A DNA stretch of 25,812 nt, taken from positions 1 through 25,812 of the IMG/VR virus record IMGVR_UViG_3300048016_000135, one strand, 5' to 3'. Made by a program: the position numbers and the translations under genes. The notes below the pieces were generated by a model. That model was given only the letters and a program-made list of their open reading frames with translations. It did no database searches and was not told where the DNA came from. Numbering within the stretch: position 1 is the first letter of the stretch; every line of letters begins with the position of its first letter. This DNA is from a virus. Below, one piece after another: positions 204-22,988 of this stretch.

Positions 204-225
204 ATTATATTTCGGTTTTAATTAA
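204..225 (-). promoter_or_regulatory. Leaderless-type phage promoter, copy 1 (rIIA-like)
   Basis: Minus strand reads TTAATTAAAACCGAA, one base, then TATAAT; the ATG of the rIIA-like gene follows after 8 nt. This is the repeated motif described in the summary. The HNH endonuclease gene starts only about 30 bp away on the other strand. Confidence 0.75.
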
Positions 226-243
226 AAAAACTTTTTCTTAAGG

Positions 244-1413: not shown

Positions 1414-1435
1414 ATTGTAATTCGGTTTTAATTAA
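1414..1435 (-). promoter_or_regulatory. Leaderless-type phage promoter, copy 2
   Basis: TTAATTAAAACCGAA then TTACAAT, 6 nt before the ATG at 1407. The stop codon of the gene at 1432-1614 lies inside the motif. Confidence 0.75.
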
Positions 1436-1614
1436 TAATCATCCGCACTATTATAATGACTTCCATACTCGATATGATTCTCCAATCTTTCATCCAAGTC
1501 TTTAAACTTTTCATCAATATACAGTTTAAGTAATTGCGTTAATATATTGATTGGATATCCACTTGTAATTGAAGATTCTATAAGATCATTTAAACTTTTT
1601 TCTATATCACTCAT
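1432..1614 (-). CDS. Small acidic helical protein
   Basis: 60 aa from ATG at 1614 (MSDIEKSLNDLIESS). The frame is open to 1680, but that extension runs through the tRNA-like T-arm at 1628-1644 and gives unlikely residues, so 1614 is chosen. Mostly helical and acidic with a Tyr/Asp-rich tail; family not recognised. Its stop lies inside promoter copy 2. It sits just downstream of the structured RNA region and may be co-transcribed with it. Confidence 0.55.
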   Translation of the reverse strand: MSDIEKSLNDLIESSITSGYPINILTQLLKLYIDEKFKDLDERLENHIEYGSHYNSADDY

Positions 1615-1617
1615 AAT

Positions 1618-1961
1618 GATTAAGTGAGTGGGATTCGAACCCACAATGAACGATATGCACCGTTTCGAAAAACTAATCAACTAAAGAAGATCGATCCTCT
1701 ATAGTTGAGAAATATTTTTCTCTCAAATCCTCCGCGAAAGGATTTAACCGCTAACCTATATTTGGACTTCACTCAAATTAAAGGGAATATAATAGTAGAG
1801 ACTGGCATAGGGTGTTTCTCAATCTTGATTGACAGTCATCTAAACCCACCTAAAGATTACTTCTATTATATTCCCAAGGGGAAACCGTATGATATCGAAT
1901 CATAAAAAAAGCACTCTGCCCTTATCAGTGTCATAGCTTCGGTTTCCGATTCAATCACTTA
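1618..1961 (-). ncRNA. Structured non-coding RNA candidate with tRNA-like 3' end
   Basis: There is no convincing gene here on either strand, but many helices can be drawn. Minus-strand 1644-1628 is a perfect tRNA T-arm (GTGGG, TTCGAAT loop, CCCAC), followed by the acceptor-like strand TCACTTAA (1627-1620). Three upstream strands could pair with it: TAAGTGA at 1961-1955 (7/7), TTGAGTGA at 1776-1769 (8/8 with one G.U) and TTAGTTGA at 1684-1677 (7/8 with one G.U). Between them lie a perfect 13-bp inverted repeat (1783-1795 with 1863-1875), an 8-bp pair (1880-1887 with 1940-1947), and a 7-bp hairpin with a 7-nt loop TTCGCGG (1725-1745) that looks like an anticodon arm with anticodon CGC. Possibilities are a tmRNA-like molecule of about 340 nt, a tRNA interrupted by an intron or large insertion, or decayed tRNA genes. 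I cannot decide; a normal cloverleaf does not fit. Confidence 0.45.
1783..1875. repeat. 13-bp perfect inverted repeat
   Basis: GGGAATATAATAG at 1783-1795 and its exact complement at 1863-1875, enclosing 67 bases. Inside the loop is a smaller hairpin. A stem of this length is very unlikely by chance and supports a folded RNA here. Confidence 0.7.
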
Positions 1962-3141: not shown

Positions 3142-3900
3142 ATGGTTAATAGTGAAAGTGCAGTTAAAAGATGGAAAGACCACCCAAAGATTGATGGTTA
3201 CAATGTAGACCATAATTTGTTTTTGTCAAGTGTTGATCCATACGTTTCTTATATTTTAGGATTCTTATGGGCGGATGGAAATATTCAAACTAGGTCAATC
3301 AATTTAGAACTTAAAAAAGAGGATATTATAGATATTAAACCAATTTTTGATAAAGTTGGCAAGTGGGGTTATTATGAAAGACAGAGAATGAAAAATGGTG
3401 AACCATTTGGTAATATTCAAGCAAAATTATCAACTTCAAATAAACTATTAGTAAATTTTTTAGTTAGTATGGATTATACAAATAGATCGGTTGGTCCATC
3501 TAAAATATTAGACCATATACCTTTACAATATCATCATAATTTTTGGCACGGATTTTTTGATGGGGATGGATGTCTTTATATCGAAAACAAAAAAGGTGGA
3601 ACTATAACTTTACAATTTTGGTCAACTATTGATCAGGATTGGACCCCTTTAATAAATTACTTACATGGTGATAACTATAAAATATGGAAATATGAAAGAT
3701 TAAAAGAAAATGGAAATATCCATAAATCTTCCTGCTTTGGTGTTAAGAATACTTTACATATAAAATCCTTTTTAGATAAATTTTATCAGTGTGAGATCAC
3801 TGGTTTAACTAGAAAATATGAAAAATATAAAATATTAACAGATAGAATTATCAATAGTCCTAAAAAATATCCATCCACTGGAACTAGATTTTATCAATAG
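3142..3900 (+). CDS. LAGLIDADG homing endonuclease (two-motif type)
   Basis: 252 aa with two LAGLIDADG helices: LGFLWADG at 39-46 and HGFFDGDG at 136-143, each ending in the catalytic acidic residue. The spacing of about 97 residues is that of a monomeric two-motif enzyme, though somewhat compact. Such enzymes cut long DNA sites and copy themselves into gaps. It is on the plus strand, opposite to the surrounding operon, and its last 17 bases overlap the 3' end of the thioredoxin-like gene. No intron or intein sequence surrounds it, so it is free-standing. Confidence 0.85.
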   Translation: MVNSESAVKRWKDHPKIDGYNVDHNLFLSSVDPYVSYILGFLWADGNIQTRSINLELKKEDIIDIKPIFDKVGKWGYYERQRMKNGEPFGNIQAKLSTSNKLLVNFLVSMDYTNRSVGPSKILDHIPLQYHHNFWHGFFDGDGCLYIENKKGGTITLQFWSTIDQDWTPLINYLHGDNYKIWKYERLKENGNIHKSSCFGVKNTLHIKSFLDKFYQCEITGLTRKYEKYKILTDRIINSPKKYPSTGTRFYQ

Positions 3901-5678: not shown

Positions 5679-5912
5679 TTCCATTTGTATTCAAGACTTT
5701 GTATTGGGCATTTACCAATAATATTAAAAAAGTGGTCTGTTTTACTTTGAGGAATATATAATCGATACCCTTCTTTATTTTCGGTTGAATTACACCACAC
5801 TATTCCTAAAGTGAGTAAATCCATCATCTAAAAACCAATGTAGTAGAAACACTCCATCAATATCGATATCTTCCGGTATTACCTTTTTGTAGTTATTCCA
5901 TTCAGGATACCA
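5675..5912 (-). pseudogene. Decayed LAGLIDADG homing endonuclease fragment
   Basis: No intact ORF, but two overlapping frames give the C-terminal half of a LAGLIDADG endonuclease. The first frame, from about 5912, reads WYPEWNNYKKVIPED, then LLHWFLDDGFTHFRNS, with the WFLDDG signature of the family. It hits a stop, and the +1 frame continues WCNSTENKEGYRLYIPQ and FFNIIGKCPIQSLEYKWK, stop. The switch happens near 5790, so one base has been lost or gained. The N-terminal half is absent. The fragment lies between the PARP gene (it begins inside the last codons of that gene in another frame) and promoter copy 4, and points to an old homing event on the minus strand. Confidence 0.65.
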
Positions 5913-7146
5913 CCTTCAACTCTAAAAGATATTTTATTTTGATTTGATTGCTATTATACACAATAAGTTCATCATTGTGTAGTCCTGTCTTATGTGGTAA
6001 AGCCCAGCAAGAATCGTAACCAGAGGGTATTGAATTGATCCCATATGTAGTAGGATAATATGGATTACCCATTTCGAAATTACAGACGAAAAGCCAAGCG
6101 TTATTGCCAGATGATTGTCCCCAACGACCTAAGCTATAACCAAGACTTTTAGAACTTGTTTCAGAACCATAAACACCGGAGCCGAATAAAGCCCCCGCAA
6201 TCGCAGCAGTAGATGGCGGTCTAACATTTAGTCCACTTTTCAAGATCGACAATATGTTCGATTGCGAACTCCCGTGCCACACTTCCTTAACATTCACTGG
6301 ATTCTTCACGAAGTCAGTATTGTAATCCACAATGTCAACCTCGTAAATATTCACAATTTTGACATTGGTGTAATTATGCATTGCCTTGTTGGTCCTATTA
6401 TACCAATCCTGAATTCTCTTAATAACTTTTTGATCAGTAACCAGAGACATGTTGAGATTGAATACTTTTTCACCAGCCTTACCATCTTTAACAGTAGTTT
6501 TAAGTGCAATATCAACACTGTTTTCAAGAGCATCTAATACATCGGATTCTTTCTTTACAACATCAACAGTTGGAAATATATCCTCATACTGTAATCCACC
6601 ACCCTTTGGTCTTGGAATGATCTTAAGATAATCATCAATCCTTTGATTGAAATCATCTTGACCGTTCTTCTTGATGTTTTTGAAAAAGTAATCAAGTAGA
6701 ATACGTGCTTCTGAAATACCATCCTTGGTAACAATACCAAGGGGAGTTTGAAATACACCATTATTGAAGCTAATACTAGTTGAATTAGTAATCTTGTGGA
6801 CGTTGCTATCTGCAAGTCTCTTAATAAGTGTTTTGAGACTAGTATCAGAAAGATTTATTTGGGATAAGGCAATATCAGAAAGAGAAGTATTGGCAGCGGT
6901 AGTTGTATTAACCGCACCTTCCATTAGAACCTTAGCTCGGGAATATCCCTTGCGTTCCTTCTCACGGATTTTCTTTTCAAAGAATGATCTACCCACATTA
7001 CCAAAATCTTTTGATTGAGGGTTCTTAGCACCGACAACACCAAATTCTGCCACGACTTTACCATCATCATGTAATTCAGCTTGCCAAAACTTGTATGAAT
7101 TGGCCTTTAGGTCTGAAAAGACGAGCTTTACTTTTTCCACTTCCAT
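5902..7146 (-). CDS. WGR-PARP family ADP-ribosyltransferase
   Basis: 414 aa. Residues 5-75 form a WGR domain (KFWQAELHDDG near 19-29, then an FGVVG core and a KERKGYSRAKVL tail), found in PARPs and thought to contact nucleic acid. Residues 95-260 fit the helical regulatory region. The catalytic ART domain at about 285-412 has the H-Y-E triad: H291 in VWHGSS, Y326 in FGSGVYGS and E393 in HNDELIVYN, with SSKSLGYS after the Tyr. The triad with Glu is that of polymerising PARPs, which move ADP-ribose from NAD+ to protein or nucleic acid. This is the head of an operon, 6 nt after a TACAAT box. A macro-domain protein that could remove ADP-ribose is encoded at 20131-20649. Bacterial and phage PARPs are uncommon. 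Confidence 0.9.
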   Translation of the reverse strand: MEVEKVKLVFSDLKANSYKFWQAELHDDGKVVAEFGVVGAKNPQSKDFGNVGRSFFEKKIREKERKGYSRAKVLMEGAVNTTTAANTSLSDIALSQINLSDTSLKTLIKRLADSNVHKITNSTSISFNNGVFQTPLGIVTKDGISEARILLDYFFKNIKKNGQDDFNQRIDDYLKIIPRPKGGGLQYEDIFPTVDVVKKESDVLDALENSVDIALKTTVKDGKAGEKVFNLNMSLVTDQKVIKRIQDWYNRTNKAMHNYTNVKIVNIYEVDIVDYNTDFVKNPVNVKEVWHGSSQSNILSILKSGLNVRPPSTAAIAGALFGSGVYGSETSSKSLGYSLGRWGQSSGNNAWLFVCNFEMGNPYYPTTYGINSIPSGYDSCWALPHKTGLHNDELIVYNSNQIKIKYLLELKVVS

Positions 7147-21468: not shown

Positions 21469-22026
21469 TTCCAGTGTCTCTATTATATTTGAAGTTATGT
21501 TCGAAAGATATTCAACATCCTTTTCAATGGGTTCTTCCCACACAGTAAATGATTTGACCTTTACGTATTGAGTTAGTGGTAAATCGCTTAAGAATTTAAC
21601 CTTTCCAATCCCTATACGATGCTCTCGATATTGCAAGTCATCCACCAACATATTAAAAGTATCAATAAACATGGGATGTGGTTGATATTTGTATATATCT
21701 TCTCTTGCAAAAATTTTAGATTTGGGGTCAAACCCCAAATTCAGTTTAATATTACACCAATAGATATAATCCTGTAGTCCAGTGGTTAATATATAAACAT
21801 TATCAGGACCAACCAACTGTTTACAAAAAGTAATCAAATCATCTGCCCATGGTCTTTTAAATGTAACATGCCACCCGTATCCATACATTTCAAATTTATC
21901 CCCAACAAAGTGTTCGGTGTAATCGTATAATAATTCATCTGCATGTTTTTCACTATCAGCATATAAACTATGTCCCAATGTATTATCAAAATCTAAAAAT
22001 ATACGACTGTTAGTTAAGCCTCCCAT
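21448..22026 (-). CDS. HAD-superfamily phosphatase
   Basis: 192 aa. FLDFDNTLGHS at 10-20 holds the nucleophile D12 and D14; ILTTG at 79-83 gives the Thr; MLVDDL at 126-131 gives the acidic pair. This is the HAD fold; the substrate (nucleotide, sugar phosphate or protein) is not evident. A 30-residue insertion after motif I (SEKHADELLYDYTEHFVG) acts as a small cap. The ATG lies 13 bases inside the end of the GMP reductase gene. The C-terminus LELIKTEI is encoded by the next promoter. Confidence 0.8.
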   Translation of the reverse strand: MGGLTNSRIFLDFDNTLGHSLYADSEKHADELLYDYTEHFVGDKFEMYGYGWHVTFKRPWADDLITFCKQLVGPDNVYILTTGLQDYIYWCNIKLNLGFDPKSKIFAREDIYKYQPHPMFIDTFNMLVDDLQYREHRIGIGKVKFLSDLPLTQYVKVKSFTVWEEPIEKDVEYLSNITSNIIETLELIKTEI

Positions 22027-22988
22027 GATGATACTATTTCAATTTTAGAATATTTTATATCCAACAATTTACTCCCCCCCGAATAAGATACAGCAGATTG
22101 AAGATCCTGTTGAATTTCGATTAATTTTTCTTCATATGTCATTGCTTCCATCTCAATGACTTTTTTGATACCCTCAACGTGTTTATATTCTCCTTTATTA
22201 TATTGAGAAGCGGACCCATAATAAATTTTATGACCATCTATTATCTCAGCAGGGGAATCTATTAATTTAGAAAACACCCCTCCCGCCATAACCATAGTAG
22301 CACCAGCATGAATAGCCTTAACGATATCACCGTGTTCTCTTATACCACCATCTGCTATAATGGGAACCATCCTCAGTATGGAATGATTCTTAAGAGTATA
22401 AGATTTTATATCATTTATACAAGAATACATTGGATAAGTGAATCCTGTTTTGTTTTTAGTGGAGCATATTTTACCACTACCTATTCCAACCTTGACCGCA
22501 TCTACCCCCCACTCTATTAAATCCAAATACCCGGCACTGGTTGCGACATTACCAGCAATAATTTTAGATGTTATATTCAAAGATTTAATATACTCAATCA
22601 TTTCCTTCATTAAAACGGAGTGTCCATTTGCTATATCAATAGTAATAAAATTAGGAATATATCCTTTATCAACCATTAGATCTAATTCATTCATCGAATC
22701 ATATCCGACTCCAACACTTATAGATTTAAGATCCCATGCGTTATCACACATGGTTTTCATGATTTGAAGATTATCTTCTCCAAAACGATGCATCACATAA
22801 AAATATCCATTATCAGATAGCCATTTAGCTATCTTCATATCTATTACACATGTCATATTAGATGGGATAACCGGAAGTTTAAATTTTCTCCCAAGAAAAT
22901 TCACCGAAACATCGGCGTGTGATCTGCTTCTCAATTCACTGTATGTGGGAATTAAGCAGACATCTTTATAATGTAATTTTTTATCCAT
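22014..22988 (-). CDS. GMP reductase / IMP dehydrogenase family enzyme
   Basis: 324 aa, the length of GuaC and lacking the CBS insert of IMPDH. DIANGHS at 118-124, AGNVAT at 145-150, and the catalytic loop KVGIGSGKICSTKNKTGF with C175, then IADGGIREHGDIVKAIHAGA, all fit. GMP reductase turns GMP into IMP with NADPH; IMPDH does the reverse with NAD+. The C-S-T-K-N-K-T-G pattern after the Cys is closer to GMP reductase. It could shift the purine pool of the host. Its ATG lies 8 bases inside the end of the metallophosphoesterase gene. Confidence 0.85.
   Translation of the reverse strand: MDKKLHYKDVCLIPTYSELRSRSHADVSVNFLGRKFKLPVIPSNMTCVIDMKIAKWLSDNGYFYVMHRFGEDNLQIMKTMCDNAWDLKSISVGVGYDSMNELDLMVDKGYIPNFITIDIANGHSVLMKEMIEYIKSLNITSKIIAGNVATSAGYLDLIEWGVDAVKVGIGSGKICSTKNKTGFTYPMYSCINDIKSYTLKNHSILRMVPIIADGGIREHGDIVKAIHAGATMVMAGGVFSKLIDSPAEIIDGHKIYYGSASQYNKGEYKHVEGIKKVIEMEAMTYEEKLIEIQQDLQSAVSYSGGSKLLDIKYSKIEIVSSWEA

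Follow-up and report, generated by a model that had tools for sequence, protein, structure and literature searches.

The minus strand of a viral contig carries an RNA (RNA D) whose tRNA-like fold is conserved with compensatory changes, which stands in modular arrays and which recurs at another site in large phages. The contig, IMG/VR record IMGVR_UViG_3300048016_000135 (25,812 bases; hereafter the window, meaning the whole stretch analysed), holds most of its long open reading frames (ORFs) on the same strand. With a probability of roughly 0.55, we read the locus as the 3' end of a phage transcription unit, where distinct structured RNAs form a small array; judging from sequence comparison, D would have the shape of a tRNA plus one extra arm, would probably not decode, and would be released from the transcript and act as a mimic. 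The array is bordered on one side by a 75-aa gene and on the other by the start of a 60-aa ORF (1432-1614, minus strand), and its modules follow the order H0-B-C1-D (Table 1).

Table 1. Positions and supporting observations for the parts of the RNA array (window coordinates).
Feature	Position	Strand	Observation
Upstream 75-aa protein gene, function unassigned	1959-2186	minus	conserved at 27 loci of related phages; its stop codon precedes the RNAs
Hairpin H0 over the stop codon, arms AATCACTT/AAGTGATT	1953-1974	minus	z -3.6; arms co-change in L003, L005 and L009
RNA B, 68 nt, acceptor-plus-hairpin	1880-1947	minus	16/16 pairs kept in 3 sequences; model R1
RNA C1, 13-bp stem GGGAATATAATAG/CTATTATATTCCC	1783-1875	minus	L005 has C1 too
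RNA D, 156 nt, tRNA-like with added arm	1620-1775	minus	25/25 pairs retained across 3 sequences; G014-G016 and G019 have homologues
D acceptor 5' strand TGAGTGA	1769-1775	minus	7/7 paired in every distinct sequence compared
D-arm-like segment TCCAAATATAGGTTAGCGG, GG in loop	1747-1765	minus	CC/GG pairs invariant
D anticodon-like arm, 7 bp, loop TTCGCGG	1725-1745	minus	strong covariation
D extra arm (hairpin), sequence variable	1664-1724	minus	z -3.8 in the window
D short variable-arm-like hairpin ACGGTGCATATCGT	1650-1663	minus	pairs kept in 5 distinct sequences
D T-arm GTGGG-TTCGAAT-CCCAC	1628-1644	minus	pairs kept with compensatory changes
D acceptor 3' strand TCACTTA	1621-1627	minus	sequence

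The 75-aa protein had no match in Pfam or PHROG and no relative in searches of named phages, where a BLAST search of the region against 'phages' likewise returned no match; the 60-aa ORF had no relative among 18 records. Other genes of the window include one for a protein with PARP catalytic and WGR domains (5902-7146, minus strand), an IMP dehydrogenase/GMP reductase family gene (22014-22988, minus strand) and two endonuclease-like genes, of the endonuclease VII and LAGLIDADG types, which flank the array on the opposite strand (257-985 and 3142-3900, plus strand). Two RNA ligase genes also lie in this one short contig (7764-8837 and 16420-17805, minus strand); they would suit a conflict in which tRNA damage is at stake but prove nothing. 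A promoter-like motif, TTTTAATTAAAACCGAANTA (208-227, minus strand), is shared with L003, L005 and a 634-kb phage record.

The region from 1600 to 1975 folds better than 100/100 shuffles (z -3.0). Several parts that a sequence-only reading had pointed out are present, namely the T-arm with its acceptor strand (1621-1644), the 13-bp inverted repeat, the 8-bp pair (GGAAACCG/CGGTTTCC, 1880-1947) and the anticodon-arm-like hairpin. Its three possible acceptor partners also exist, at 1961, 1852 and 1775, each pairing 7/7 when G-U is allowed, where shuffles would lead us to expect 0.2 (P for at least two, 0.016). This chance figure alone gives no choice between the three, and the relatives decide. 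The most distant partner (1961-1955), earlier put forward for its 7/7 pairing, belongs to the stop-codon hairpin H0: it is the 3' arm (TAAGTGA), the other arm lies inside the end of the 75-aa gene, and in the 211-kb contig L003 the letters differ on both arms, independently of the D acceptor. The partner whose letters change in step with those of the acceptor strand reads TGAGTGA in the window, TTAAGGA in L003 and TAAGTGA in L005. Read side by side, the relatives resolve what had been taken for one molecule of about 340 nt into several separate RNAs. An intact protein gene across the region is unlikely, because the gaps between relatives break every reading frame there. The size of the whole region would suit a tmRNA variant, an idea of the same earlier reading to which we now give next to no credence: the tmRNA model RF00023 has no match in the window, while three of 20 records, all from relatives, score above its cutoff (G009, G017 and LR756511); the conserved acceptor partner gives an RNA of 156 nt; the parts are arranged differently from those of tmRNA; and neither GGATTCGAC nor a tag was seen.

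The same region was found in a near-identical contig (L002/L004), in the 211-kb contig (L003), whose neighbouring protein is 76-77% identical, and in a 9.3-kb contig (L005). Modules are lost or gained between these relatives, with the order H0-B-C2-D-E in L003 and, in L005, H0-B-C1-C2, a further tRNA-like segment, a hairpin, D and E. The further segment of L005 (minus strand, between C2 and D) is about 75 nt long, reads TTCAGTG...TTCGAAT...CACTGAA and has no ARAGORN call. L003 (3556-3860) and L005 (40-300, minus strand) have almost the same module E, about 210 nt long, and the protein adjoining it differs far more between the two contigs than E does.

The fold of RNA D is supported by how its paired positions change. 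Nine of its 25 pairs show two-sided changes among three sequences, against a shuffle mean of 2.9 and 0-1 in slid controls; in RNA B there are six among 16 pairs, against 2.0 expected in shuffles (again three sequences). This is the co-variation of helices that the sequence-only reading had proposed to look for in related phages. The structures of D and B were drawn from the tested sequences, which biases the percentage paired upward; the two-sided changes are the stronger evidence for both folds. D alone folds with z -4.1 against shuffles, and a scan for an acceptor joined to a T-arm gave exactly one match in the window, which is D, and 0-1 per shuffled or Markov control sequence. Its 7-bp acceptor and 5-bp T-arm with a UUCRANN loop are features of tRNA. 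Position 1620, right after the acceptor 3' strand, is an A in the discriminator position, and CCA is not encoded.

RNA D also occurs away from this locus. Run against 23 phage records, its covariance model (R2) matched, beyond its three source sequences, G019 (E 4e-8) and G014, G015 and G016 (about 5e-7; the full range across the four contigs is 4e-8 to 7e-7), where D stands after another gene than the window's 75-aa gene. For D, G015 equals G016 and G014 differs by a few bases, so that the sample comprises three close sequences and three distinct distant ones, two of the latter nearly identical. In these distant homologues the acceptor (7/7) and the anticodon-like arm (6/6) are paired with changed letters, and the T-arm and short variable arm are kept. 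The model matches no ordinary tRNA in the 211-kb relative, and the ordinary tRNAs of G009-G011 reach only 18 bits with it. A final viral scan with ATAGCTGTTAATCGTGG returned ten stretches, only four of which are D by R2, all already known. These data bear on the thought that the locus is an attachment site or a chance tRNA 3' end: an isolated T-arm with an acceptor strand can look like an attachment site, but here the 5' acceptor strand and the inner arms co-vary with them and D recurs elsewhere, which leaves this explanation with a negligible chance of being right. The earlier suggestion of a new tRNA-like RNA is supported by the compensatory changes and by the homologues at other sites.

In D, the extra arm follows the anticodon-like arm and precedes the short variable arm. 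In single-sequence folding its z is -4.2 in G019 and -5.5 in G016, and near zero in G001 and G002. An earlier idea, a tRNA with a large insert, applies only in a loose sense: there is such an arm, but no sign of splicing accompanies it. Allowing introns, ARAGORN proposed for the near-identical copy a tRNA-Thr whose 322-nt intron would span the region; as L003 and L005 gave no such call, this reading was dropped. A group I intron, one of the models suggested for checking, had no Rfam match up to E 10.

The other modules are documented in fewer sequences (three for RNA B, two for RNA C1). RNA B has a closing stem of 7-8 bp and a conserved inner segment, AAGC.AT.ACACTGATAA; its hairpin TATGA-TTCGATA-TCATA abuts the closing stem as a T-arm does on an acceptor. 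This likeness to a T-arm is weaker than that of D, as its loop is closed by an A-U pair where G-C would be expected, and L005 reads TGCGATA. The covariance model of B (R1) gives a convincing score only for the three known copies. Within the stem of C1, reading by eye points to a possible pseudoknot (TAGGTG with CACCCTA; AGATGACTG with CAGTCTCT).

The position of the array invites another explanation, in which the tRNA-like end serves as punctuation: RNase P and tRNA 3'-end enzymes would cut there, the upstream mRNA would be ended, neighbours such as C1 would be released, and the RNA itself would have no further role. Every array seen comes directly after a stop codon, and C1 is positioned between B and D. 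Among the 27 loci examined, the space that follows the 75-aa gene is taken up by ordinary tRNAs in L011 and L031 and by a terminator-like hairpin in other relatives; in L012, L024, L030 and L033 the RNAs after the homologue of this gene are short and tRNA-like, and their anticodon loop is not a normal one. Such contents fit a 3'-end or processing role and are the basis of this main rival. Punctuation has no need, however, for conserved D-like, anticodon-like, short variable or extra arms, and we regard it as rather unlikely. Further observations in the relatives concern other RNAs. L031 (4245-4296) has an RNA-like segment with GTTGGCTTAGAAGCAGC that resembles the GTPase-associated centre of 23S rRNA (its Rfam LSU match is weak, E 0.15, and its best E. 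coli BLAST places are the 23S genes). In a tRNA-Leu(UAA)-like gene of L074 (1501-1629, minus strand), a hairpin of about 44 nt is inserted into the anticodon loop. A tRNA-His(GUG)-like gene of 128 nt in G019 (C1:194745-194872; L116) has its D and anticodon arms separated by an additional hairpin, and L055 (G001 near 152.8 kb) has two more T-arm-like sites outside any ARAGORN tRNA.

A released RNA of this shape might still decode. The ordinary tRNA reading was negative in two of the checks that had been suggested: ARAGORN at default settings called no gene in the window, and the Rfam tRNA model, the best Rfam match of the region once thresholds were relaxed, scored 17.1 bits, below its cutoff of 29. 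D could nonetheless be a divergent class II tRNA, charged and decoding, that tRNA finders miss through its extra arm. It is similar to tRNAs of the leucine type in its D-loop GG, its T-loop, its acceptor and its short variable arm, the loop TTCGCGG could give the anticodon CGC, and relatives hold tRNAs with inserted hairpins. Against this stand the sub-threshold tRNA score and the anticodon-like loop itself, which is 7-9 nt long (TTTCGCGGA, ATTCGCGGT, AAGCGCGAT and AATTCGAAA when read as 9 nt) and has neither a conserved U33 nor an anticodon common to all sequences, so that the 7-nt loop with conserved U33 typical of tRNAs is not found in D. In L003 the loop reads AGCGCGA, without U33, in G014-16 and G019 it is AATTCGAAA, and the candidate anticodon is CGC in the window and L005 versus CGA at best in G014-16. 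We consider a decoding tRNA of this type improbable. Because loop length, base 33 and anticodon vary, and because the 211-kb relative G001 has 22 ordinary tRNAs (ARAGORN), we read D as an RNA that probably does not decode.

For such a non-decoding D, the acceptor/T-arm stack would be what RNase P and tRNA 3'-end enzymes recognise, and these host enzymes would cut D from the transcript; the argument for release draws on what is generally known of RNase P, RNase Z and CCA addition. With less confidence, we suggest that released D may have no part in translation and may instead act as a tRNA mimic that keeps tRNA-binding or tRNA-cutting host proteins occupied. Its function can only be inferred, and D may serve either as a decoy for proteins that act on tRNA or as an element for processing and 3' ends. 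More broadly, non-decoding tRNA mimics with an added arm might form an RNA family of large phages; host tRNA-processing enzymes would release them, and host proteins that bind tRNA or cut it would be the targets of these decoys. This broader idea is tentative, and we would not yet expect it to hold. Why phages carry tRNAs is still debated, one proposal being resistance to tRNA-cutting host enzymes (PMC10264068); a conserved tRNA-shaped RNA without clear decoding, beside ordinary phage tRNAs, would separate decoding from other roles. D is also an example of how RNAs of this type escape tRNA finders and Rfam.

Among known RNA classes, tmRNA (RF00023) shares with D a tRNA-like end joined to further structure, but D has no match to its model and a different order of parts, and relatives encode true tmRNAs, like ordinary tRNAs, apart from D. 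GOLLD and ROOL are structured phage RNAs of unassigned function, often near tRNA islands, and are much larger than the window's RNAs (PMC12286853), whose region matched no Rfam family at the gathering score, these two included. In the open-access literature we found no description of RNA D. Phage-encoded tRNAs, some of which are proposed to resist host anticodon nucleases (PMC10264068), have an acceptor stem, a T-arm and a D-loop GG as D does, and D likewise occurs in phages that hold ordinary tRNAs. D differs from them in its extra arm, in its inconsistent anticodon-like loop and in not being recognised by ARAGORN or by the Rfam tRNA model at threshold. D belongs to no Rfam family; in kind it is a phage-encoded tRNA-like RNA. 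In the tRNA cluster of phage T4, the stable RNAs C and D are non-tRNA stable RNAs made beside phage tRNAs. By this description they would resemble the window's RNA D.
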